NCBI GenBank assembly: GCA_018003015.1
Contig: JAGNEZ010000059.1
Location: 1 to 36,900, forward strand
DNA length: 36,900 nt
Direction of reading: 5' to 3'
DNA from: Phycisphaerae bacterium
GTDB lineage: Bacteria > Planctomycetota > Phycisphaerae > UBA1845 > PWPN01
Positions 1 through 32,977 of the stretch are shown here, in pieces (the stretch's first letter is position 1; each line of letters starts with the position of its first letter). The position numbers and the translations under genes were made by a program. Under the pieces are notes generated by a model. It had not been told where the DNA came from. It saw nothing but the letters and a program-made list of their open reading frames with translations, and did no database searches.

Positions 1-765
1 ATCGACGGCGACGGCCGGGCGGACGACGCCGCCGATGAACTGGACATCGATGGCGACGGCCGGGCGGACGACGCCGCCGGTGAGCTGGACATCGATGGCG
101 ACGGCCGGGCGGACGACGCCGCCGGTGAGCTGGACATCGATGGCGACGGCCGGGTAGATGACGCCGCCGATGAACTGGACATCGATGGCGACGGCCGGGC
201 GGATGACGCCGCCGATGAACTGGACATCGATGGCGACGGCCGGGCGGATGACGCCGCCGGTGAGCTGGACATCGATGGCGACGGCCTGGCGGACGACGCC
301 GCCGGTGAGCTGGACATCGATGGCGACGGCCTGGCGGACGACGCCGCCGGTGAGCTGGACATCGATGGCGACGGCCGGACGGACGACGCCGCCGGTGAGC
401 TGGACATTGATGGCGACGGCCTGGCGGACGACGCCGCCGGTGAGCTGGACATCGATGGCGACGGCCTGGTGGACGACGCCGCCGATGAACTGGACATCGA
501 TGGCGACGGCCTGGTGGACGACGACGCCGATGAACTGGACATTGATGGCGACGGTCTGGTGGATGACGCCGCCGATGAACTGGACATCGATGGCGACGGC
601 CTGGCGGACACTGATCCTAATGAACTAGACATCGATGGTGACGGCCTGACGGACATCGATCCTAATGAGCTCGACATCGATGGCGACGGCCTGGCGGACA
701 CTGATCCTAATGAACTAGACATCGATGGTGACGGCCTGACGGACATCGATCCTAATGAGCTCGAC
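1..765 (+). repeat. 45-bp tandem array, 17 units, in frame within the coding region
   Basis: Units start every 45 bases from position 1 (1, 46, 91 and so on to 721). Each encodes 15 residues. Two main variants alternate at the fourth and third residues before the unit end: GAT GAA (Asp-Glu) and GGT GAG (Gly-Glu). Units 14-17 form a distinct subtype with DPNELD. The 90-bp block 586-675 is identical to 676-765, which points to a recent two-unit duplication. Because 45 is a multiple of three, other frames also stay open and give spurious repetitive reading frames. Confidence 0.95.
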
Positions 766-1050
766 ATCGATGGCGATGGCGTGGCCAATGTGGACGATGA
801 CGACATGGATGGTGACGGAGTCATCAACACGAATGACACGGATTCGCCCGGCGGCTACGACAACGATCTGGACAACGACGGCGTGCTCAACGACGTGGAC
901 ACCGACGTAGACGGGGACGGGCTGTCGAACGGAGACGCCCTCGAGCTGGACATCGATGGCGACGGCCTGGAGGACACTGATCCTCTGGAGTTCGACATTG
1001 ATGGCGATGGGGTCCTAAATGGCGTTGACACAACACCGAACGGCGTGTGA
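1..1050 (+). CDS. Partial acidic protein made of thrombospondin-type-3-like calcium-binding repeats
   Basis: The frame is open from the first base of the window to a TGA at 1048-1050, so the start lies outside. The visible 349 residues are almost wholly a 15-residue repeat with core IDGDGxxDxxxxELD. Asp at positions 1, 3, 5 and 9 of each DxDGDGxxD loop matches the calcium-binding loop of thrombospondin type 3 and EF-hand-like repeats. Seventeen regular units fill residues 1-255. A looser set follows (about 256-349), including a linker with SPGGYDND. No signal peptide, anchor or enzyme domain is visible, because the N-terminus is missing. By family logic it is an extracellular or surface-associated calcium-binding spacer. 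That is inference. The next gene encodes a lipoprotein with the same type of repeat, so the two probably act at the same site or arose by domain sharing. Confidence 0.8.
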   Translation: MDGDGRADDAADELDIDGDGRADDAAGELDIDGDGRADDAAGELDIDGDGRVDDAADELDIDGDGRADDAADELDIDGDGRADDAAGELDIDGDGLADDAAGELDIDGDGLADDAAGELDIDGDGRTDDAAGELDIDGDGLADDAAGELDIDGDGLVDDAADELDIDGDGLVDDDADELDIDGDGLVDDAADELDIDGDGLADTDPNELDIDGDGLTDIDPNELDIDGDGLADTDPNELDIDGDGLTDIDPNELDIDGDGVANVDDDDMDGDGVINTNDTDSPGGYDNDLDNDGVLNDVDTDVDGDGLSNGDALELDIDGDGLEDTDPLEFDIDGDGVLNGVDTTPNGV

Positions 1051-2753: not shown

Positions 2754-3215
2754 GTGACGGATAGAGATTCAAGCGGTCACTACGCCGGGCGAAGGCATCT
2801 TCCGTCACCTCGACTCGAGGTATTGCAGTTGGCCCTGGCTCACTTGTGCCGCAAGTACTGGTATCCGCTGTACGTATACGTTCGCAGGCGCGGCCATCAG
2901 CCCGAGGATACCGCCCACCTCACCCAGGCGTGCTTCGCGCGTTTCCTGGAGAACAAACACGTCTGCTTGGCCGACCGGGCCCGGGGGCGGTTCCGTTCGT
3001 TCCTGCTCTCGTCGCTGCAGCACTTTCTGGATGATGAGTGGGACCGGGCGGGGGCGGCAAAACGCGGCGGCGGACGTTTGCCGTTTTCATGGGACGCCGC
3101 GCAGGCCGAGGCCCGCTATGTCCGCGAGCCCAAGTACTCTCACGCCTCTCATTACATGGCTTCGATGACTTTAAGTCCCATCAGTGTGGCCAGGTCCGTC
3201 GTGCTCTGCAGATGA
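2754..3215 (+). pseudogene. Truncated sigma-70-like (ECF-type) RNA polymerase sigma factor
   Basis: The frame, opening at a GTG, encodes a stretch matching region 2 of planctomycete ECF-like sigma factors: LCRKYWYPLYVYVRRRG, then a region like 'DLTQ-FFARFLE' (here HLTQACFARFLEN), GRFRSFLLSSLQHFL, and KRGGG. After the conserved EARYVREP (about position 3128) the similarity stops, and the frame runs antisense into the end of the neighbouring minus-strand gene. Region 4, needed for -35 recognition, is absent. The usual N-terminal Thr-x-Trp-Ser segment is also missing or degraded. The start codon is 12 bases after the preceding stop, in the same frame. I infer a decayed gene, not a working factor; a short truncated regulator is the less likely alternative. 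Confidence 0.72.
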
Positions 3216-8017: not shown

Positions 8018-8465
8018 CGATCAGAACTCCATAAAGCCGCCATGGGACACCGCCCTCCTGTCACTCACCGGGGCACCCACCCCGTGTGCTGTGGCGCAAC
8101 GGATGCACATCCCCGCACGGGTATATCAGTCCTTATGACACCGCTCGACGACTCCATCCCCTGGACCTCTAAAAGCCTCCATGTTTCAGTGGCACGAGGT
8201 CAGGACTCCTGCTCAGAGTATACAGCTCCCGTCGATGAAAAGGGATATCCGCTTCGATACAAGGGGGACACCCAAGACCCTCAGAAAACGCGAGTCCGCA
8301 CACATACCGTCCTCCCTCAGACTACTGACTGCAGGGAGGCGAACCACCGGCTTCACGATCCGCAGCGAACGGGAGCGGCCATGGGCGCTCGGGGCGCATC
8401 AGTCTTCTCTTGATATGGCTTGCGTCTCGGCACCGGGGGGCCGTTTCGAATGGCCCTTGACCACC
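8018..8465. other. Intergenic stretch, nothing recognised
   Basis: This 448-base stretch lies upstream of the truncated protease and downstream of the AraC-type gene. Reading frames here are short and do not resemble known proteins. No strong hairpin or promoter pair stood out. Confidence 0.5.
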
Positions 8466-9401
8466 CTACCGGTTTGCCTCGGCATGCCCCCCGTGGGAGC
8501 GCCGCCTGAGCTTAAGGGGCGTAACCCCCTCACGCTGGGCAAAAGCGACCCGCATGCGCTGCTCGCTTGGGAATCCTGCCAGGTATGCGATCGCCTTCAC
8601 CGGCATGTCCGTCTCTTCGAGCAGACGTTTCGCCCGGTTCACCCGGCAGGCAATGATCTCCTCAACAACCGAATGGCCGACATATCGCTGGAACCGACGT
8701 TCCAGGGTTCGTTGGGTCACGCCGACTCCTTCGGCAAGCTGCTTGACGGAGATGGCCTGATGGCCGCGGGTCCATATTCGGGCCAGAGCCCCGGAGACCG
8801 CCGAGTCTGTGGGCAGATCAAGCTGAACCGAGGGCTCCAGGGCGCTGGGCAGTGTGATGCCGGCGACCGCCTCGATGACTGTACCCAGCAGGCCCAGCGC
8901 GTGCAGTGACAGCAGAATGGAATTGCGGGCCGGATTGACCAGGACCTTTTCGATCAGCTCGTCGAAGCACCTGACCAGCAGCCCCGAGCCGGTGATGCGA
9001 CGCACCGGGCACTCGCGTTGGAGGAGGGACATGTCCATCAGCCGGTGGGCCAGTTCACCGCTGAAACAGAGCCACCGCTCCGTCCAACCGACTTGGGGCG
9101 ACGGCCGATACCGGTGCCACACGCCCGGAAACAGAAAAATGACGCTCTGTGGCGGCACCGGCAGCGGCCCGGTGGTCTTCGACTCGAAAAGGCCGGTTCC
9201 CTTGTTGATCAGGAGCAGCGCGAACTCAGGGAGTTGACGTCCCTGTTCCCAGCGGAAGTGGTACAGGTGAGGATGGGCTTGCCGGGGGTAGACGGATCCC
9301 GGCGGAGTTGTCGCCCGTCCGATCCCCGTCAAGTAGATGCCCCAGCGCATGGCGTCATCGTTGACGGGCAGGTAGCAGTGTACGTCGCGTGCTGATCCCA
9401 T
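8466..9401 (-). CDS. AraC-family transcriptional regulator
   Basis: I place the start at the ATG at 9401 (311 residues), preferring it to a TTG four codons upstream. The N-terminal half is a cupin-like sensing domain (HPHLYHFRWEQGRQLPEFALL, then a Pro-rich PPQSVIFLFPGVWHRYRP), as in AraC proteins that bind sugars. The C-terminal 100 residues contain two helix-turn-helix motifs: ISVKQLAEGVGVTQRTLERRF and MPVKAIAYLAGFPSEQRMRVAF, with a modified final region. It is divergent from the large secreted protein gene starting at 9970. The shared 568-base interval makes that gene a natural target; this is inference from position. The inducer is unknown. Confidence 0.9.
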   Translation of the reverse strand: MGSARDVHCYLPVNDDAMRWGIYLTGIGRATTPPGSVYPRQAHPHLYHFRWEQGRQLPEFALLLINKGTGLFESKTTGPLPVPPQSVIFLFPGVWHRYRPSPQVGWTERWLCFSGELAHRLMDMSLLQRECPVRRITGSGLLVRCFDELIEKVLVNPARNSILLSLHALGLLGTVIEAVAGITLPSALEPSVQLDLPTDSAVSGALARIWTRGHQAISVKQLAEGVGVTQRTLERRFQRYVGHSVVEEIIACRVNRAKRLLEETDMPVKAIAYLAGFPSEQRMRVAFAQREGVTPLKLRRRSHGGHAEANR

Positions 9402-9969
9402 GACGATTCTCAACCCTTTGAGGTCGCCTCAACCATAGCATGAGCATACCAGACTGGCAACAGGCGTGTCGAGAAACACCTGTTGATTCCTCTTGCTCCG
9501 ATCGCCGAAAAGCCGTTAGCATACAAGAGGTTCTATCGGATTCCTGGAACGTGCGAACAGCAGGTTGCGTGTGTGTTTCAGGGCTTCGGCCGGGCCTCCG
9601 GCCTGGGCCATCCGCCCGGGTACTCTGTGGGGGGCTTAAACCCGGCCCCGCGACGCGGCCGGTTGGGCGCAACCTTGGCGTTGCCCAACGGGGCGCGGGC
9701 ACAACCGATCGTTTCCGGTGGCCACGGTCGCGGCGATGCGGGCCCGCCTGTGTTCGCAGAGAGAGGAAGGAGGCGAGATCCGCCAGTCACAACCGTACCG
9801 CGCTAATCGGCCACATGGCTAACGCGGGAGAACAACCAGGACTTTCTGAGGAGTTGCGGTCGCGGTTCGGTTGTTTCGCCGCCACGCTCACGTCCACCGG
9901 ACGAACGCCGCTGCTGATCCGCATGGCAGCACTGCCAGTTATCCGTTCTGTTAGAGGAGGACAAATCGT
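9402..9969. other. Divergent intergenic region between araC-type gene and secreted protein gene
   Basis: The region must hold promoters for both flanking genes. It contains GC-rich inverted repeats, a hairpin at 9662-9689, and at its right end a strong ribosome binding site AGGAGG (9955-9960), nine bases before the ATG at 9970. Short open frames here look like shadows. I could not identify a confident -35/-10 pair. Confidence 0.5.
9662..9689. promoter_or_regulatory. Imperfect inverted repeat, possible operator or leader hairpin
   Basis: GTTGGG plus GCAAC (9662-9673, with one unpaired C) faces GTTGC plus CCAAC on the right arm, giving a bulged stem of about ten pairs. It sits about 280 bases before the secreted protein start. 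It could be an RNA hairpin or a dyad bound by the neighbouring AraC-type protein. Confidence 0.3.
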
Positions 9970-12900
9970 ATGCGCACGAACCTGTACCTACGGTCCTGTA
10001 TCGCGGTACTGGCCTTGTTGGCCGCTGCACCCGCGTGGGGCCAGTTCAGCTATGTCAGCGACTTCAACTCGGTCGCGCCCGGCACGAAGCCTCCGGGCTG
10101 GGCGACCCGGAACTACTATGGCCCAGCTTACGACCCGGTCATCTTCAGCCAGGACCCGGCCGGCTGGAACGAGGCCTGTTCCTCGACGCTGTGGAGCATT
10201 CCAGGAGCCCAGGACTACGCGCTCTGCGGCAATCGCCTCACCCTGATCCACGCAGGCTTCGCCGACGTCGGCGCCGCCACCGCCTGGTACGCCGGCAACT
10301 CCGATCCCGGCTACCCGATGAACCTCCAACAGCAGAGCCTCAAGGCCGAATTCGACATGTTCCTGCGCGTCGGCCATACCTGGATCAATGTAGCGGGGGA
10401 TGGAGCCACCTTCGCCGTTCAACCGGTTGCAGACACGGTTGACGCCCAACAGGCGGTTGGCGCCTGCGGCGCGGGCGGCAGCATGTTCGGGTGGCAGGCC
10501 GGTGGTTTCGCCATTGAGTTTGACAACTGGCCCAGCGGTGGCAACGGCGAACCTGCAGTGTATTCGCAGGGGCTTGGAACGGACTGGGGTCCCGCCAGGA
10601 ACCACCTGGGGGTGGACCTCTACTCGTTCTGGGATCTCTACAGCGTGGGCTTCCCCAGTCTCCAGACCGACTTGGATGTGCTGGATCTCGTCAACGGCCC
10701 GTTCTACTGGCCTACCGGCGTGTCACCTGATGTCTTGCCCTACATGATGATGATTGGTACCTGCAACATCCCCATTCATATTACCGTCTATTACAATGAT
10801 CCGGATCACGGCGGGCTGGGACAGATTCAAGTGTACATGAGGATCCCCAATTCAACCGGTCTGCCCGGCGTCCTGCTCGACCTCCAGCCGGGCGGGTACG
10901 GCCTTGGCGAAGGTGATCCTCCGGAAGGCAAGAAGGTCCTCGACTACCAGGTCGGCCCTTGGCCTAGCACCGGTGCGGTTTTCGGCTTCAGTGCCGGCGG
11001 GGGTTCGGCGACGGGCACCATGCAGTTCGCCAACGTTCGAGTGAGTACCACGGGTGTCAGCGGCACAGCCCTGCCGTACTCCGGCAGTATTCCGCAGCTC
11101 GCCGCCGGCGATCCGGTGACCTTGACCGCTTCGCCGACCGCCGGTACGCCGAGCCAACCCGGCTGGGATGTAACCACGTACGCCTCCAAGGTCCAGCTTC
11201 CCAGTCTTGGCTTCCTCAAGAGAGACATCGCGACGGACCTGGCCTCGGGCGTCAATGCACATCTGTCGCTGCTTGCCAGCGTCACTGGAGAGCCGGCCGT
11301 CGACTACGTCGATACCGGCGATAACGGCAACCTGGGACGGGGCCGGTACTTCCCCGGCCTCACCGACGGGGCCGATCACGACAACTTCGCCATGACGGCC
11401 AAAGGGTGGATCCAGTTCCCGGCCGCCGGCGACTACTCCCTGGGCATTGGCGCTGACGACCAGGTCGAGGTCTCCATCGGAGGCCAAGTCGTACTCTCCG
11501 GTTTCACCGGCATGTACGTCGGTCAGAATGAGGACATCCGCTGCAACCTGCATGTCGACCCCGCCGGCATCTACCCCATCCAGATCACCTATGTTGCCGC
11601 CACGTCCGGCGACGGCGTCGAGTTCTATCGCCGTCTGACCAACATCACCAACCCACTGACCTTCCCGTATGCGGCCATCGGCAGCACCAACGCCGGCCTA
11701 GCCGACCAGCCGGTCGTCTACGGGCTGTTGGACGGCAAGGCAGCGCCTCTGGACTTGTCGGGCGGCGAACCGTGGACACTCACCCTTTCCAAGACCGAGC
11801 GCGTCAGCAACGGCACGACCGCCGGTGCTTCGGGATTCAAGGTCAAGACGACGCCCTCGCCGTGGATCTACTACCAACCCGGCTCGGGCTACAACCTGTT
11901 CTGGAAGCGCGACCGGGAATGTGAAGACTGGAACACCTCTGCGTTGATGTTCCTGGATTTCCTGGGCAATGATCCGGCCCACGCCAGCACCTCCGACACC
12001 ATCAACTTCGCCACTGGCGATACCACCGGGTGGCCTCGTGTGTTCACCGGCGGCACGCCGTTCCCCAACGCTCCCGGTGGCGCTCAGCTCTTCGCCATGC
12101 GAGCCGACGGTTTCGTCACCCTGAGCCCGGGCACCTACTTCCTCGGACTGGACGCCAACGACCAGGCCCGGCTCTTCATCGGCAATCAGGCCATCGACGT
12201 CGTCTACTACCAGCCGCACATCATGCTCTTTGAGCTGGTCGTGCCGCCGGATGCCGGCGGAACGTATCCCATCCGCGTCGAGTACACCCAGTACCTCGAC
12301 GTCGGATACGTCGATCTCTACCAGGTGGTCGATGGCACGGTGGTACCTGTCAACGGCCCGGGTTCCACCATCACCGTGCACCAATCCGTGACGCCGGGTG
12401 CTGCGTATCATGCCGTCAAGACGAACGGCTATGTCATTCCGGCCAGCGCCAAACGCGCCGAGACGGGCCAGGGCGGCACGCTCGGCTGGAACGCTACCTT
12501 CGCGCCCTGCGCAGCAGAGCAACCCTTCTTCGGCTACGCTGAGGCGGCCCTGCAATACGATCTCGCCGGCGGCCCGAACATCGTGATCGTCGCCCCGCCC
12601 GACACCAGCCAACACCCTAGCGTCGTCGCCTATGGAGCCGGCCAGGGGCTCGGCCGTTTCCCCGGTAGCCAGACCAACTGGATGACGGCCTTCCCATCCT
12701 GCCCGGCCGACTATGACAACTTCGCCGTGGCCGTCGAGGGCCTCATCGAGTTCCCCGGGCCGGGGGATTACGGTTTCAACACCTGCACCTCGGGTGCGTG
12801 CAAGATGTGGATCGGCGGGCAACTCGTCCAAAGCCATTCGGCCGCCTACGCCTGGCCTTATAACAACGGCGACCCTGCCCAGGACAACATCCCGGTCTCA

Positions 12901-13986
12901 GTGCACGTGGACGAGGCCGGCCTCTACGACATCCGCGTGGCATACATCCAGTCAACCGCCGTGACTCCCACGCCTCTGCTGGAGGTGTTCCAGTACCAGA
13001 CGGCCGACGCGAGCCCTGTGCTGCTCAACAGCCCCGGCGCTCTCAACGTGTTCCAGAACCTGGCCGACGGCGGCACTCCGCGCAATCCGGTCGTGCTTCC
13101 GACCAGCGCTAAGGTGGCTCCGTATGACGCCGGCATCACCCCGGGTCTGCATGCCGAGGTTGTCTCTTGGGCGGCGGCCAGCGGCGATACATATGGCCAG
13201 TCCGTTTACGGTGGCCTTGGCCACGATGCCTTCATCAATCTCCACCAGGCCAAGGATCTGCTCGACGCGGTGGTCTACGGCGACGCCGATGCGCTGCTTC
13301 GGCAGCAGGGTATGGTCGCGTTCAGCGGCATCGTCTACCAGGTCAGCTTCAAGACCGACAATTGGGCTCTTCCGCCCGGAGAACCGTTCCCGGGAGAGCT
13401 GGATAACTGGTTTGCCATGCGTCTCAGCGGCCGAATCGCTCTGAAGAAGGGCGGCACCGTCATGGGCGTCTTTGCCGATGACGCGGTGATCGTCAAGATT
13501 GGCGGAGTGGACGTGCATCGCGAAGGGGCTACCTACGATGCCAACGAATGGCCGATGATGTACGTGCATGCCCCGGAGGACGGCCTCTACCCCATCGAGA
13601 TCGATTACCTGGCTAAAAGTGGCAACACATTTCTCTGGCTGTTAACCACTGACCCGGCCTGGACGGTGTGGAACCCGATCAACTCGGATCCCAACTACTT
13701 CGGCGTGCATTTCTACGCCGACGTGGCCACTTGCGACCATCAGCCGTTCGCCGACGCGGACGGCGATGGCGACGTCGACCAGGTCGACTTCGGTACGTTC
13801 CAGACGTGCTTCACGGGATCAACGCCGCCGTCCGGGCCGCTTGGCTTGTGCAAGTGCTTCGATCGCGACAACTACGGCGTGGGCAATGGCGCCGTCGACG
13901 CCGCAGACTTGGCGGAGTTCGCCAAGTGCTATACGGGTGCGATGATTCCGTGGTCGTCGGCCCAGTCGCCGGACTGCAAACCCTAG
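9970..13986 (+). CDS. Giant secreted protein: lectin-like domain, four PA14-like modules, dockerin-like C-terminus
   Basis: The 1338-residue product has a Sec signal peptide (MRTNLYLRSCIAVLALLAAAPAWG) and the strong AGGAGG start signal. Residues about 25-240 look like an L-type lectin (concanavalin-like) fold: GDGATFAVQ, AIEFDNW and NHLGVDL echo its conserved strands. Four PA14-like carbohydrate-binding modules follow near 455-560, 685-760, 890-1000 and 1140-1220. Each has a 'DNFAM..G.I.F..AGDY' strand pair and an IGG turn. The end (1257-1330) holds two dockerin-like calcium loops, DADGDGDVDQVDFGTFQTCF and a second with AVDAADLAEFAKCYTG. No catalytic domain is visible, so I read it as a polysaccharide-binding or adhesive surface protein. 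The tail resembles domains recurrent in planctomycete secreted proteins. It is divergent from an AraC-type regulator. Confidence 0.8.
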   Translation: MRTNLYLRSCIAVLALLAAAPAWGQFSYVSDFNSVAPGTKPPGWATRNYYGPAYDPVIFSQDPAGWNEACSSTLWSIPGAQDYALCGNRLTLIHAGFADVGAATAWYAGNSDPGYPMNLQQQSLKAEFDMFLRVGHTWINVAGDGATFAVQPVADTVDAQQAVGACGAGGSMFGWQAGGFAIEFDNWPSGGNGEPAVYSQGLGTDWGPARNHLGVDLYSFWDLYSVGFPSLQTDLDVLDLVNGPFYWPTGVSPDVLPYMMMIGTCNIPIHITVYYNDPDHGGLGQIQVYMRIPNSTGLPGVLLDLQPGGYGLGEGDPPEGKKVLDYQVGPWPSTGAVFGFSAGGGSATGTMQFANVRVSTTGVSGTALPYSGSIPQLAAGDPVTLTASPTAGTPSQPGWDVTTYASKVQLPSLGFLKRDIATDLASGVNAHLSLLASVTGEPAVDYVDTGDNGNLGRGRYFPGLTDGADHDNFAMTAKGWIQFPAAGDYSLGIGADDQVEVSIGGQVVLSGFTGMYVGQNEDIRCNLHVDPAGIYPIQITYVAATSGDGVEFYRRLTNITNPLTFPYAAIGSTNAGLADQPVVYGLLDGKAAPLDLSGGEPWTLTLSKTERVSNGTTAGASGFKVKTTPSPWIYYQPGSGYNLFWKRDRECEDWNTSALMFLDFLGNDPAHASTSDTINFATGDTTGWPRVFTGGTPFPNAPGGAQLFAMRADGFVTLSPGTYFLGLDANDQARLFIGNQAIDVVYYQPHIMLFELVVPPDAGGTYPIRVEYTQYLDVGYVDLYQVVDGTVVPVNGPGSTITVHQSVTPGAAYHAVKTNGYVIPASAKRAETGQGGTLGWNATFAPCAAEQPFFGYAEAALQYDLAGGPNIVIVAPPDTSQHPSVVAYGAGQGLGRFPGSQTNWMTAFPSCPADYDNFAVAVEGLIEFPGPGDYGFNTCTSGACKMWIGGQLVQSHSAAYAWPYNNGDPAQDNIPVSVHVDEAGLYDIRVAYIQSTAVTPTPLLEVFQYQTADASPVLLNSPGALNVFQNLADGGTPRNPVVLPTSAKVAPYDAGITPGLHAEVVSWAAASGDTYGQSVYGGLGHDAFINLHQAKDLLDAVVYGDADALLRQQGMVAFSGIVYQVSFKTDNWALPPGEPFPGELDNWFAMRLSGRIALKKGGTVMGVFADDAVIVKIGGVDVHREGATYDANEWPMMYVHAPEDGLYPIEIDYLAKSGNTFLWLLTTDPAWTVWNPINSDPNYFGVHFYADVATCDHQPFADADGDGDVDQVDFGTFQTCFTGSTPPSGPLGLCKCFDRDNYGVGNGAVDAADLAEFAKCYTGAMIPWSSAQSPDCKP

Positions 13987-14168
13987 CACACCTGCCATGA
14001 GGTGAAGGTCAGTTGTCCTCCCGACGGCCATGGGCGAATTGACCCGCCCGTGGCCGTCCGCTTGAGGATCGCCAACTGCCGGCCGAGGTTCAGGTTCTCG
14101 ACGGTCAAAACCGTTTGGAGAACCAGGTGAGCCCGGAAGACGGTCGGGACCGCGCGCAAGCGGCCCAT
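13983..14168 (-). pseudogene. Remnant of an integrase-type (rve) transposase
   Basis: A 61-residue frame from the ATG at 14168 contains FRAHLVLQTVLTVENLNLGR followed by QLAILKRT. This matches the N-terminal signature of integrase-core transposases, usually 'LENLALRQQLAVLKR'. The similarity breaks off within about 20 residues, before any DDE catalytic residues, and the frame ends exactly at the stop of the large secreted protein gene. No terminal inverted repeats or target duplication were seen. It is a fragment of a once-mobile gene. Confidence 0.55.
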
Positions 14169-14478
14169 GTCCCCTTCCTCCTGCGCCTTGGGCAAGGCAG
14201 GCAGACGCCAAACGAGCCGGGGCAAGTCGAGTCGGCAGGTTCGGTCGGGCAGCGAGGCCGAGTTTGTCGAAAGGGACGGCCGCTGACAGACACCAGGAGA
14301 GCCATGTTTTCGGTTCGTTCTGTGCCTCGCGGGACCGGTTTCGAGCTCGTCTTGACCGCAGGGTCGAGCGGTTGGGCGAGACATCCTCAGGTACCCAGGC
14401 AGCCGCAGCTGCCCTGATCGAGGTTGCCTGCTTCTGATCAGGCCCGTGCCGGGGTTCGATCTCCCCAGCCCGGTCGGC
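14169..14478. other. Intergenic stretch with a hairpin downstream of hldE
   Basis: No gene is supported here, though the minus-strand frame continues upstream of the transposase fragment and may be more of its debris. CCTGATC (14413-14419) pairs with GATCAGG (14436-14442) across a 16-base loop, shortly past the hldE stop on that strand. It lacks a T-tract and is only a weak terminator candidate. Confidence 0.4.
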
Positions 14479-15960
14479 CTACGATCCGTGCCTGATTCGC
14501 TCGATGATGCCGCTCGTGCTCAGGCCCTTTTCCATGGGCACGAGGACCACCCGGCCGCCCGTGGCTTCGACATGTTCCCGTCCGACCACACCCTTGTTCG
14601 CCCAGTCCTCGCCCTTGACCAGGACGTTCGGGGACAGCTTCTCGATGACCTCCTTCGGGGTCGGGTCGTCGTAGATCACCACGTAGTCCACGCAGCCCAA
14701 GGCGGCCAGAACTTCCGCTCGTTGATCCTGGGGCACGATGGGTCGGCCGGGAGCCTTGCCCTGGGCACGCACCGAGACATCCGAGTTCAGGCCGACGACC
14801 AGGATCGCGCCCATCCTTCGGCACTGTTCCAGCAGCCGCACGTGTCCCACGTGCAGCAGATCGTAGCAGCCGTTCGTGAATACCACCGTCTCGCCCCGGC
14901 TCTTGCGAAGGGCCAGCTCGGCGGCCAGCTCCTTCAAGTCACGAACCTTACTGCCGGCCGAGCCCGACGAGATCCGCAGGTCGGCGATGACCTCGTCGCG
15001 GCGGATCGGCACGCAGCCGAACTTCTCGACTTCCAGGCCGCCGGCCACGTTGGTCAGATGAGCGGCCTGCTCCCAGGTCGCCCCGGCCACCCGAGCGGCC
15101 ACCAGCATGGCCAGCACGGCGTCGCCCGCGCCGGTATTGTCGTACACCGCTCGTGGCCGCGTCGGAACGTGCACCGGCTTCTGCCCGCGGACTGCCAGGA
15201 CCACCCCCTCGCGGTCCAGGGTGACCAGCAACCCCTCTAGGTCACATCGCTCGATCAGGGGGTTCACCTCGGCCAGCACGGTCGTCAAGCTCGTATCCGC
15301 GCAGCCACTGGCGATCTGGAACTCGTTTCGGTTCGGCGTCAGCATCGTTGCCCCGCGGTAACGGGCGTAGTCGCTGACCCGAGCCGGATCCACTAGGACC
15401 GGTTTGCCTGCTTCCCTTGCCGCCGCGATGATGCGTTGGCACAGAGCGTTGCTGAGAAGCCCCTTGCCGTAATCCTCCAGGCACACTGCGACCGCGTGGG
15501 AGGTGCATCGCCGCACCAACTCGGCCAGCCGATCCGCATCCCCGGGACCGAGTGGCCGGGTCACCTCCTCGTCGACGCGCATGAGTTGTTGCCGATGACG
15601 ATGCTGGGCCAGGCCGACGAACCGCGTCTTGGTGGTGGTGGGGCGGTCGCCGACGGCGAGTACGCCGCGTGTGCTGATCGCCTGGTTCTGCAACAGGGCT
15701 CGCAGCCGGCTGCCGGAATCGTCCAGACCGACCGCTCCGCAGCAGATGACGTCCAGGCCGAGCTCACGCAGGTTGGCGGCCACACTGCCGGCCCCGCCGA
15801 CCCGCTCTTCCTCCGATTTCTTGCACAGCACCGGCACCGGTGCCTCCGGGCTGATCCGCTCCGCGTCGCCGTAGACATACCGATCCAGGATCAGATCGCC
15901 GACCAGCAGCACCCGCTGGCCACCGAACGCCTCCACCAATCGAATCAGCTCTGGAATCAA
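14479..15960 (-). CDS. hldE: Bifunctional heptose 7-phosphate kinase / heptose 1-phosphate adenylyltransferase
   Basis: A TTG start at 15960 with AAAGGAG six bases upstream gives 493 residues, close to the 477 of E. coli HldE; further upstream the frame is not protein-like. The N-terminal PfkB/ribokinase domain shows VLLVGDLILDRYVYG, GGAGSVAANL and the ATP-binding DNTGAGDAVLAML (near residue 272). The C-terminal nucleotidyltransferase domain has TNGCYDLLHVGH (HxGH near 368) and KGEDW. The enzyme phosphorylates D-beta-D-heptose 7-phosphate and later adenylates the 1-phosphate, giving ADP-heptose for lipopolysaccharide core. Its presence supports a Gram-negative-type envelope. Other pathway genes (gmhA, gmhB, hldD) are not next to it, although an epimerase lies at 29967. 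Confidence 0.95.
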   Translation of the reverse strand: MIPELIRLVEAFGGQRVLLVGDLILDRYVYGDAERISPEAPVPVLCKKSEEERVGGAGSVAANLRELGLDVICCGAVGLDDSGSRLRALLQNQAISTRGVLAVGDRPTTTKTRFVGLAQHRHRQQLMRVDEEVTRPLGPGDADRLAELVRRCTSHAVAVCLEDYGKGLLSNALCQRIIAAAREAGKPVLVDPARVSDYARYRGATMLTPNRNEFQIASGCADTSLTTVLAEVNPLIERCDLEGLLVTLDREGVVLAVRGQKPVHVPTRPRAVYDNTGAGDAVLAMLVAARVAGATWEQAAHLTNVAGGLEVEKFGCVPIRRDEVIADLRISSGSAGSKVRDLKELAAELALRKSRGETVVFTNGCYDLLHVGHVRLLEQCRRMGAILVVGLNSDVSVRAQGKAPGRPIVPQDQRAEVLAALGCVDYVVIYDDPTPKEVIEKLSPNVLVKGEDWANKGVVGREHVEATGGRVVLVPMEKGLSTSGIIERIRHGS

Positions 15961-16263
15961 GGGCCACTCCTTTGCCCAGGTCGGGATGCTGCCGCCGTAA
16001 CAACCTGTCGGCCAAGTGTTTACACCATGTGACGGGCGCGGGATCGCGTGCCTCGCACCTCGGCGGCTCATGGTATTCAAGCCTTGCGGGAGCGTCAATT
16101 CCCCGGCGACGGCGGGCGGCCTTTCGCGGCCCTTGCATTGGGGCTTGGTTTGACTACACTACCTTCGAAATCGCGTGCGGCGCGGGGCGGGTCGGCTATG
16201 TCCCTTGCACGCCGCGTCATGATTGCTTCCTCACTTTACACACGGAGCACAGGGTTCACCACA
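15961..16263. other. Divergent intergenic region between hldE and the TPR/alpha-CTD gene
   Basis: The 303-base interval carries the hldE ribosome binding site at its left edge and must supply leaders for both genes. Frames running through it are extensions upstream of the real starts. No clear -35/-10 pair or dyad stood out. Confidence 0.45.
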
Positions 16264-17220
16264 ATGATTGATGTCGCCGCTTTGATCCGCGAGGGCAAGA
16301 TCCAACAAGCCGAGACCGAACTGAGCCAGAGCCAGGCGGAATCCGCTAACAATCCGCAATGGCATTTCGCCCGCGGGCGGCTTCTGGAAGCCAAGGGACA
16401 GGGGGGGGATGCCGTGGCCGCCTACGAGAAGGCGCTCAGCATGGACCCCAATCACCAGGAGGCGATGTTTGCCCTGGCCTTCTACCTCGACTTGCACGGT
16501 GCGGATGATGAAGCCGTCAAGTACTACGAGGCCCTGGCCGCCAAGACGCCTGTCCATGTGAACGCGCTGATCAATCTGGCGGTGATTTACGAGGATCGCG
16601 GGCGATATGAGGACGCCCTCCGCTGCATCGATCGCGTCTTGGCGGAGCACCCCAATCACCAGCGGGCCCGCATGTTCGCGAAGGACATCGAGAGCTCGAT
16701 GGACATGTACTATGACGAGAACCAGGAGCGCAGCCGCCAGAAGCGCAATGCGATCCTCGACACCCCGATCGCGGATTTCGAACTCAGCGTCCGCAGCCGT
16801 AACTGCCTCCGCAAGATGAACATCAACTCGCTTGGCGATCTGCTGCGCATTAGTGAGGCGGAACTGCTGGCCTACAAGAACTTCGGTGAGACCTCGCTCA
16901 ACGAGATCAAGGCCATGCTTGCCCAGAAGGGGCTGCGGCTGGGCCAGCTCAAGGAGGAGGCCATTCGCTCCACTCGCCCGGCCCCGCGTCGCCAGCTTCC
17001 GGAGGGTTCCCCGGATGTGCTCAACAAGTACCTGTCCGAGATCGAGTTCTCCAGCCGGTCGCGCAAGTGCCTCCAGCGGCTGAATCTGGTCACCCTGGGC
17101 GACCTGATCATGCGGACCGAGGCAGAGCTTCTGGCGACCAAGAATTTCGGCCAGACCTCCTTGAACGAAATCAAGGCCAAGTTGGCGGAGTTTGGCGTCA
17201 GCCTCCGCAAACCGGAGTAG
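16264..17220 (+). CDS. TPR protein with two RNA polymerase alpha-CTD modules
   Basis: The ATG at 16264 begins a 318-residue protein; earlier starts would add non-homologous sequence. Residues about 1-150 form tetratricopeptide repeats (for example DAVAAYEKALSMDPNHQEAM and DALRCIDRVLAEHPNHQRAR), which bind other proteins. Two modules like the C-terminal domain of RNA polymerase alpha follow. In the first (about 168-218), ELSVRSRNCL and NFGETSLNEIK keep residues equal to E. coli R265, N268, C269, G296, S299 and E302, which contact UP-element DNA; K297 and K298 are replaced. In the second (about 257-312), SRSRKCL keeps R265 and C269 but has Lys at N268. No polymerase assembly domain is present, so this is not rpoA. 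Likely a DNA-binding or transcription-linked adaptor. Similar proteins occur in planctomycetes, but I know of no assigned function. Confidence 0.88.
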   Translation: MIDVAALIREGKIQQAETELSQSQAESANNPQWHFARGRLLEAKGQGGDAVAAYEKALSMDPNHQEAMFALAFYLDLHGADDEAVKYYEALAAKTPVHVNALINLAVIYEDRGRYEDALRCIDRVLAEHPNHQRARMFAKDIESSMDMYYDENQERSRQKRNAILDTPIADFELSVRSRNCLRKMNINSLGDLLRISEAELLAYKNFGETSLNEIKAMLAQKGLRLGQLKEEAIRSTRPAPRRQLPEGSPDVLNKYLSEIEFSSRSRKCLQRLNLVTLGDLIMRTEAELLATKNFGQTSLNEIKAKLAEFGVSLRKPE

Positions 17221-17317
17221 ATTCACGACGATCGCTACCGGGCTGAGCAGTGGGCTGCCGGGCAGGTTGGCTGCCTGTCGAGTGACCACCCGGTCGTTGT
17301 GGTCCCATGATCACCGC

Positions 17318-18574
17318 ATGTGTTGTCTCGCCACACTGGGATTGTGGGTACTCCTCGGCGCGGGCTGTCATCAGACACCCGGGACGGCACCTGCCGGCGC
17401 GGCTTCACGTCCCGCGGAGGCGGTTCCCGAGCCTATCGACCGGCAGATCCGCGTCCTTTTGCTGGAGGGCACGCCCGCGTGTTCGGTCAGCTCGGACGAA
17501 GCGTTCGATCTGATTGACCCTGCCGCAGGTACCCATTTCGGCCAGGGCGAAGGGGGCAAGCCGCTCGGCGTCGTGTTTGAGGGTCAACGGATTCGCGTGC
17601 CATCACTGCAACTCGACTTGGCCGACGAAGTCGTTGATTTGGTGCCCCGCGGCCTGGAGCCCATCGGGATCCAGGTCAACGGCAAGGTCCAGTACTATCG
17701 CGGCTGGATCCGGTTCACGCGGACCGGCGACAACGCCGGTGCGGTCACCAATGTCGTTGACATCGAAGACTACCTCATCGCCGTCGTGGATGCCGAACTT
17801 CCGCGGCGATTCCATCAGGAGACGTTTCGAGCCCAGGCCATCGCGGCTCGGACGTACGCCTGGTATCACAAGCAGACCGCGGGTAAGAAGCGCTCGTGGG
17901 ACGTGAGGGCGACGGAGCGATCGCAGGTATACCGCGGGATCGGCCGGAGTCCACACGGGTCTCCTGCCGCGGAGGCGGTTTACGACACCCGTGGTCTGGT
18001 CTGTGCCTGGGATGCACCCGAGGGCGAGCGGATCTTCTGCACATACTACTCCTCCGCCTGTGGCGGGACGACCGCTTCGGCAGCCGCCATCAATGGGCGG
18101 GAAGACGCCCAGATCCCGCCCCTGGCCGGCAATGTGCAGTGCGATTTCTGCCGAAACGCGCCCGATCGTTCCTGGGGACCGGTTGCACTCGGCAAAACGG
18201 TGATCACCGAGTCGCTTCGCGGCCGATATCCCCGTTTTCGGGCCATCGGTCCCATCGAGCGCATCGAGGTGGCCGAGGCAACTCCCGCCGGGCGAGCCGC
18301 GAGGTACCGGTGCATCGACGGCCAGGATCGCGAGGTCGAGATCGAGGCCGAAAACCTGCGGCTGACCCTCGACCCCACCGGACGCGAGATCCGCAGCACC
18401 TGCTTCGTTCTCGCCAACAACGGCTCTGAGTGCGTGTTCCAGGAGGGACGCGGTTTGGGGCACGGCGTCGGCTTGTGTCAGTATGGCGCAGACGCCTTGG
18501 CTCGCCAGGGGATGAAAGCGAGCCAGATTCTGAAGCTGTATTATCCGTCTTCTCGGGTCAGAAGGGCGTACTGA
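17318..18574 (+). CDS. SpoIID/LytB-domain lipoprotein
   Basis: The ATG at 17318 gives 418 residues starting with a lipoprotein signal (LLGAGC, Cys at residue 17). The SpoIID/LytB domain is recognised by VVDIEDYLIAVVDAELP, FRAQAIAARTYAWYH (about 165-186), the Cys-Gly-Gly segment YYSSACGGTTAS, and the closing GRGLGHGVGLCQYGADALA (near 378-397). In Bacillus, SpoIID is a peptidoglycan lytic transglycosylase and LytB an amidase enhancer. In non-sporulating bacteria such proteins are thought to act on cell-wall glycan, so a role in wall turnover is inferred. It starts about 100 bases after the TPR/alpha-CTD gene, and the next gene starts 12 bases after its stop, suggesting a shared transcript. Confidence 0.87.
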   Translation: MCCLATLGLWVLLGAGCHQTPGTAPAGAASRPAEAVPEPIDRQIRVLLLEGTPACSVSSDEAFDLIDPAAGTHFGQGEGGKPLGVVFEGQRIRVPSLQLDLADEVVDLVPRGLEPIGIQVNGKVQYYRGWIRFTRTGDNAGAVTNVVDIEDYLIAVVDAELPRRFHQETFRAQAIAARTYAWYHKQTAGKKRSWDVRATERSQVYRGIGRSPHGSPAAEAVYDTRGLVCAWDAPEGERIFCTYYSSACGGTTASAAAINGREDAQIPPLAGNVQCDFCRNAPDRSWGPVALGKTVITESLRGRYPRFRAIGPIERIEVAEATPAGRAARYRCIDGQDREVEIEAENLRLTLDPTGREIRSTCFVLANNGSECVFQEGRGLGHGVGLCQYGADALARQGMKASQILKLYYPSSRVRRAY

Positions 18575-18586
18575 AGGTTCGCACGC

Positions 18587-19573
18587 ATGGAGGCTGAGTC
18601 CAGGTTGCGGCTGTCGGCAGTCCTACGCTATGCGGTCTGCGCCGCGGCCTTGGCGTGGCTCTATCACAAGACCGACTGGGGCCAGTTCAAGCAGGTTCTG
18701 GTCAGTGCAGATTGGCGGCTGGCCCTGCTGGCAATGCTGGTCTTCGGTCCCGCGGTGCTGCTCATCTCGGTTCGCCTGAAGGTGCTCCTGGCCGTCCAAC
18801 AGGTCCATCTGTCCGTGTGGCAAGCCGTGAAGGTCACCTTCGCCGGGAACTTCGTGATCAGCGCCTTGCCGGTGGGGACGCCCGGCGGCGATTCGGTCAA
18901 AGCCTACTACGTCGCTCGAGACACACCCCTGAAGCACGAGGCGGTCACGGCCGTCTTCTTCGATCGGGCGGTTGGGGTGCTCGGCCTGCTGCTCATGGCC
19001 GGCGTTATTGTCCTGGCCGACTGGGACAATCCGGCCTTCAGGGTGTGGGGGCGGGTCATCGGCTTCCTCCTGCTGGTCCTGGTGGTGAGCGTAGGTCTGT
19101 ATGCGTCGGCTTCCGTACGCCGCGCACTCCAACTGTGGCGAGTGGTCGCGATTCTGCCTCTCAGCCGACACATTCACCGCGTGGACAAGGCGATCATGGC
19201 TTTCCGCCAAGACCTGGGACGGGTGGCCGTCTCGATGTGCTTAACCTTCGTTCTCCAAACGATTTCCATTGCAGCGTACTTCCTGGGAGGCTGGGCCCTG
19301 GGCGTGGTGGGCACCGATCCCTGGACGGCGTTTCCGGTGTATCTTGCCTATACCCCGATCTGTCTGCTCACCGGAGCGTTGCCGATCGGCGTGATGGAAC
19401 TGACTTTCCAGGAGCTGTTCGCCGGGGCCGCAGGGCTGGGCAGTCCCGAGGCGGCGCTGTCCCTCTCATTCTTCGGGCGACTGATCCAGCTGATCTGGGC
19501 AGTCCCGGGAGGTCTGGTGGTGCTCCGCTCTCGGGCCGACCTGAAAAACGCCGGTCTGGACGCGGCCGAATAG
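18587..19573 (+). CDS. UPF0104 / lysylphosphatidylglycerol synthase-type membrane protein
   Basis: The 328-residue product has about seven or eight hydrophobic segments and the family signature ALPVGTPGGDSVKAYYVARD (about 100-120), which resembles the flippase part of MprF and the UPF0104 family. A FFDRAVGVLGLL segment and a C-terminal GLVVLRSRADLK complete the pattern. The aminoacyl-transferase domain of MprF is absent, so it is not a lysyl-PG synthase itself. Proteins of this type are suspected lipid or lipid-linked sugar transporters; the substrate is unknown. It starts 12 bases after the SpoIID-like gene, so envelope function is plausible. Confidence 0.85.
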   Translation: MEAESRLRLSAVLRYAVCAAALAWLYHKTDWGQFKQVLVSADWRLALLAMLVFGPAVLLISVRLKVLLAVQQVHLSVWQAVKVTFAGNFVISALPVGTPGGDSVKAYYVARDTPLKHEAVTAVFFDRAVGVLGLLLMAGVIVLADWDNPAFRVWGRVIGFLLLVLVVSVGLYASASVRRALQLWRVVAILPLSRHIHRVDKAIMAFRQDLGRVAVSMCLTFVLQTISIAAYFLGGWALGVVGTDPWTAFPVYLAYTPICLLTGALPIGVMELTFQELFAGAAGLGSPEAALSLSFFGRLIQLIWAVPGGLVVLRSRADLKNAGLDAAE

Positions 19574-32608: not shown

Positions 32609-32977
32609 ATGGGCACGAAGTTGTATGTTGGTAACTTGCCTTACAGTGTCAGCAGCTCCGATCTGGAGCACCTTTTCGCTCCGCACGGCACCGTGCAGAG
32701 CGCGGAGGTGATCAGCGATCGCATGACTGGCAGGAGCAAGGGTTTTGGCTTCGTCGAGATGGGCTCTGATGAGGAAGCCCAGGCGGCGATCACAGCCCTC
32801 AATGGTCAGGACCACAATGGTCGGCCTCTGACCGTCAACGAAGCGAAGCCGCGAGAGAGTCGCGGTCCTGGTGGCGGCGGCCGCGGTGGCTACGGGGGTG
32901 GCCGCGGCGGCGGCGGAGGCGGCGGAGGCGGCGGAGGCGGCCGTGGCGGCTACGGCGGTGGTCGCGGCATGCGCTGA
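32609..32977 (+). CDS. Glycine-rich RNA-binding protein with one RRM
   Basis: The ATG at 32609 has AGGAG (32596-32600) eight bases upstream. The 122-residue protein is one RNA recognition motif: RNP2 is KLYVGNLPY (4-12) and RNP1 is SKGFGFVEM (near 44-52). A tail of Gly with Arg and Tyr (RGGYGGGRGG type) follows from about residue 85. Such small RRM-Gly proteins act as cold- or stress-induced RNA chaperones in cyanobacteria and other bacteria. The long predicted leader would fit post-transcriptional control. A strong terminator follows the gene. Confidence 0.93.
   Translation: MGTKLYVGNLPYSVSSSDLEHLFAPHGTVQSAEVISDRMTGRSKGFGFVEMGSDEEAQAAITALNGQDHNGRPLTVNEAKPRESRGPGGGGRGGYGGGRGGGGGGGGGGGGRGGYGGGRGMR

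Follow-up and report, generated by a model that had tools for sequence, protein, structure and literature searches.

The array and its gene

The DNA analysed here (the window) is one entire contig, C59 (36,900 bp), of a 6.86-Mb genome in 144 contigs. Its left end is occupied by a tandem array, which Tandem Repeats Finder reports as a 45-bp period over positions 1–785 (17.4 copies, 91% matches). As the preliminary description had it, positions 1–765 comprise seventeen in-frame units; every one is exactly 45 bp, and all fall in a single forward-strand open frame (1–1050, 349 aa, stop codon at 1048–1050) with an open 5' end; its orthologue is complete in a sister genome. We attribute an open frame on the reverse strand, at 3–839, to the repetition itself.

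The core units 1–13 (1–585, forward strand) encode 15 residues each, written (I)DGDG[LR][AVT]DD[AD]A[DG]ELD. They fall into the GATGAA and GGTGAG subtypes already described: codon 12 GAT occurs with codon 13 GAA in 6/6 units and GGT with GAG in 7/7, a complete linkage with a chance probability of ~6e-4. The 45-bp array closes, also as described, with DPNELD units; these are units 14–17 (586–765, forward strand), a TDPNELD/IDPNELD pair that is present twice. The reported identity of 586–675 with 676–765 is exact and stretches further, so that 583–686 equals 673–776 on the same strand, a duplication of 104 bp at an offset of 90. Beyond it, 766–1050 encodes degenerate TSP3-like units of other lengths and then the C-terminus, in a position that is kept in the sister (261/285 bases). 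The product of the neighbouring gene, P0002 (1143–2741, forward strand), is also a predicted lipoprotein (LLAGC), 532 aa long. It contains TSP3-like units of 13 residues and an acidic run, its C-terminal part is free of repeats, and it is 90% identical in the sister.

An intact orthologue in a sister species

Since base 1 is the end of the contig, the array is cut and seventeen units are only a minimum. A scan of genome contigs in the named collection found one locus, that of the sister genome, Planctomycetota bacterium RA.bin145 (JAKLEZ010000010.1), a metagenome-assembled genome of the same genus that holds the intact orthologue (L059 4231–11634). The genus sample consists of two genomes, one per species. 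The sister gene encodes a predicted lipoprotein of 2467 aa, counted from an ATG of our choosing, and sits on a 214,645-bp contig that reads through a 19-unit array without a break. From the N-terminus the protein has a lipobox-like start, Ig-like and bacterial TSP3-type segments, and a 592-aa tail. Its body resembles Big_5, TSP3_bac and the Ca-binding domain of binary toxin B/anthrax PA, all below cut-offs. The tail has 19 units of the 45-bp type, one of them being 42 bp, and in its upstream part most units are of 13 residues. Immediately 5' of the sister gene start (L059 4038–4205) lie two 84-bp copies, 96% matching.

The start of the window's own gene lies in an open frame of 582 aa at one end of another contig, C108, and the DNA upstream of it is 84–91% identical to that of the sister. 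The sister's middle part gives only short matches in the window's own genome assembly; because the gene middle is absent there at recognisable identity, C108 and C59 are linked by synteny with the sister and not by sequence. Location of the rest of the array on another contig of the same genome was considered and rejected: a 30-base unit pattern, allowing up to 3 mismatches, was found across that genome in 13 places, all on C59. A lipobox-like signal, LVLAC, was read by eye both in the sister and at the gene start on C108, and through it the suggestion that the array belongs to a surface protein gains inferential support. As judged from sequence, the array makes up the tail at the C-terminus of a large predicted lipoprotein, and the contig edge truncates it.

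Nature of the tail

The 349-aa tail contains 24 DxDxDG loops, 22 of them extended as DxDxDGxx[DN]. Tandem DxDxDG loops with a further Asp or Asn two residues past the G are what we take to be the criterion of the TSP3 family, and the tail has this form. The DxDGDGxxD spacing, together with the hydrophobic residues I1 and L14, is kept in 17/17 units. DxDxDG has the spacing of known Ca2+-binding loops, and Dx[DN]xDG occurs in the homologous binuclear Ca2+ motifs of thrombospondin and anthrax protective antigen (PMC3123361).

Tandem DxDxDG loops are common to the window and to PF02412 and PF18884. In the 3' part of the tail, searched as a fragment, PF02412 (TSP_3) picks out three stretches at 22.4 bits against a cut-off of 25, and PF18884 matches nine stretches in the sister's body at 16 bits against a cut-off of 25. 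A profile search with P0001 gave no match at E 0.1, and no Pfam or NCBIfam family matched the tail at its curated cut-off. The window unit differs from thrombospondin type 3 repeats in having 15 residues rather than the 13 usual in the upstream part of the sister tail, in being cysteine-free, and in being nearly identical from copy to copy at the DNA level.

The nearest named relatives are myxobacterial. The NCBIfam models CglD and MtsD match the sister's body at 91.9 and 30.6 bits, far from their cut-offs of 400 and 800, and MtsC matches the sister's tail at 16.7 bits, far from its cut-off of 350; nothing exceeds the CglD cut-off in 41 genomes, the window's own included. A literature search found no paper in which MtsC, MtsD and Myxococcus appear together. 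TraB of Myxococcus, an outer-membrane protein active in cell–cell adhesion (PMC6372800), is alike in having TSP3 repeats; its beta-barrel and OmpA domain are not seen in the window protein. A passage of PMC12057145 names TSP3 only in a figure key. Because these relatives are motility and cohesion proteins matched below cut-off, a role in adhesion or cohesion is a guess by analogy.

Searches against solved-structure sequences gave matches to Bam M (E 0.0041) and guanylyl cyclase-activating proteins (E 1.3), and for the sister tail to a serine protease (E 0.023); all were weak and were set aside. An AlphaFold model of the tail (window 541–1047, with the sister as sole other row) has a pLDDT of 43.6, too low to lend support to any structure.

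Most likely the tail is a stalk that Ca2+ would stiffen, of the thrombospondin type 3 kind; the strictness of the repeat and a net charge of −134 in the 349 residues fit such a predicted structure. A tail that is an unstructured polyanion, such as a sponge for cations or minerals, would also fit this charge, the lack of any domain above cut-off and the low confidence of the model. We nevertheless regard an unordered tail as unlikely, since a polyanion would not need the loop spacing and the I1 and L14 residues that all seventeen units keep.

Distribution of the tail

We searched 61 genomes and found matches to the neighbour P0002 in 27, to the tail in 23 and to the sister's body in 26, the last counted at E 1e-10; many of the matches among these genomes are short TSP3-like stretches. 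Ten loci, from eight of the genomes matching the sister's body, were examined. In all ten the big gene has no tail, and its last segment, at the C-terminus, can be aligned loosely to the position immediately ahead of the sister's tail; this was read from an alignment for nine loci and separately for the one in genome G036. A TSP3-rich gene adjoins the big gene in nine of the loci, and at the tenth the contig ends there. The 15-residue core array occurs in 2/397 genomes of the class, both of the same genus, and a search of plasmid records found no relatives. A modest sample thus supports the tail as a genus-level addition. It is possible, if doubtful, that in this genus a large envelope lipoprotein, tail-less in its relatives, gained its Ca2+-loop stalk, perhaps by copying from the array of the lipoprotein gene that adjoins it in the related loci, the new 15-residue unit then expanding; if this is true, stalk length would be tunable by single 45-bp units.

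We note some peculiarities of these loci: (i) Genome G030 has the big gene in triplicate, on the short contigs L090, L092 and L093, where a contig end cuts each copy; at least two of the copies adjoin a TSP3-rich gene. (ii) In G051 the TSP3-rich neighbour gene (L087 1865–3055) has a short repeat array of its own (LSDAFEWLFGSDPNDEDSDDDD), with a unit unlike that of the window.

Unit turnover

The two arrays differ in unit content. The sister's 19 units divide into 17 of the core type and a single end pair (DPNELD/DPSELD). In the window there are at least 13 core units, followed by two end pairs, whose units each match their sister counterparts at 43/45 bases. An exact triple, units 11–13, is private to the sister and missing from the window. 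The 3' edge of the array is colinear between the two. For the order of the core units colinearity was not detected (p 0.46, 2000 permutations), and the 3'-anchored offset was not the best among the 21 offsets tried, in a test whose power is low because the units are so alike. The R/L choice at codon 6 and the D/G choice at codon 12 occur in all four combinations in both species, which fits reshuffling of, or recurrent change in, a common pool.

Neighbouring units resemble each other. In the window core, adjacent units are more similar than when their order is shuffled (0.948 vs 0.920, p 0.0013), and similarity correlates with distance (p 0.009); in the sister core, neighbours are likewise more alike than when shuffled (p 0.018), and the correlation with distance has p 0.13. 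Had the same 30 residues been encoded twice independently, the exact 90 bp of identical DNA would arise with a probability of ~10^-10, estimated from codon usage in nine ORFs of the window selected by us.

The preliminary description spoke of homogenised DNA. This holds locally, in the exact duplications, and fails for the array as a whole: mean identity of core units is 92.0% within the window, 90.6% within the sister and 90.4% between them, and for synonymous codons at conserved residues the corresponding values are 0.877, 0.843 and 0.847. Flanking orthologous DNA has 261/285 and 1461/1593 aligned bases identical (91.6–91.7%). With core identity within species about equal to that between them, we favour local duplication and find array-wide homogenisation unsupported; with the within-species values, codons included, barely above those between species, turnover is not fast. 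The sequences indicate that the local duplications are recent, whereas the unit pool dates back roughly to the species split.

The contig breaks off inside the array and a fragmented assembly lacks the gene's middle, circumstances in which the 90-bp duplication, or the window's entire unit pattern, might have arisen through misassembly of repetitive DNA; assembly errors of this sort, caused by tandem repeats, are reviewed in PMC6868369. We consider this distinctly unlikely, given that the sister contig crosses a comparable 19-unit array unbroken and that the expected 3' edge comes after the duplicated pair. It also counts against an artefact that assemblers collapse exact copies more often than they create them.

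Very improbable is an old and stable array, duplicated before the split and diverging in place, with purifying selection and codon bias keeping the DNA alike: unit identity between species (90.4%) does approach that within species and in the flanks (91.6–91.7%), and the R/L and D/G unit types are common to both species, but the core has no detectable positional orthology, the number of end pairs differs, exact multiplets are private to each species, and codon usage alone would yield the exact 90 bp at only ~10^-10.

Gain or loss of units since the species split is therefore well supported, by the one end pair against two, the private triple of the sister and a core without detectable colinearity. 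Unit gain and loss, as first proposed, is supported at the level of species by these same three differences. With end-pair number differing between the genomes, the array is a variable-number intragenic tandem repeat at the species level. Such repeats of variable number are described in Legionella pneumophila (PMC2639597), where in-frame tandem units likewise vary in number among genomes; here the comparison is between two species.

Our preferred explanation, which we hold to be probable, is that a TSP3-like Ca2+ stalk was added within the genus as the tail of a lipoprotein, and that its core has been remodelled by duplication and loss of 45-bp units. The array would form the C-terminus of a predicted lipid-anchored envelope protein of ~2500 residues, with one DxDxDG loop in each 15-residue unit; the stacked loops would bind Ca2+ and give a stiff, acidic stalk like that of thrombospondin type 3 repeats. 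After the tail was added in the window's genus, the core may have changed by one or two units at a time, duplicated in tandem or lost; slippage or unequal recombination would achieve this with the frame kept and the stalk length changed.

The genus-restricted, remodelled TSP3-like repeat tail is real, and is a fairly ordinary case of a length-variable repeat protein. It offers a two-species case in which a repeat tail has been gained and remodelled next to coding sequence that is ~92% identical, and an example of length change in a probable Ca2+-dependent stalk on an envelope protein of Planctomycetota. It also carries a warning that fragmented assemblies cut such genes, the present one lying on two contigs with its middle missing.

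The downstream region

Synteny with the sister stretch used for comparison ends at 2728 and resumes, inverted, at 8331–19211, with an unmatched stretch between; this break and inverted return point to a rearrangement just downstream of the gene pair. A short open frame (2754–3215) that ends near this rearrangement has no Pfam match; on visual inspection it looks like the beginning of an ECF-type sigma factor. Farther along the window are a 1338-aa open frame with two PA14 stretches (9970–13986) and a short tandem array of 9-bp GGCGGCGGA units (32900–32958).
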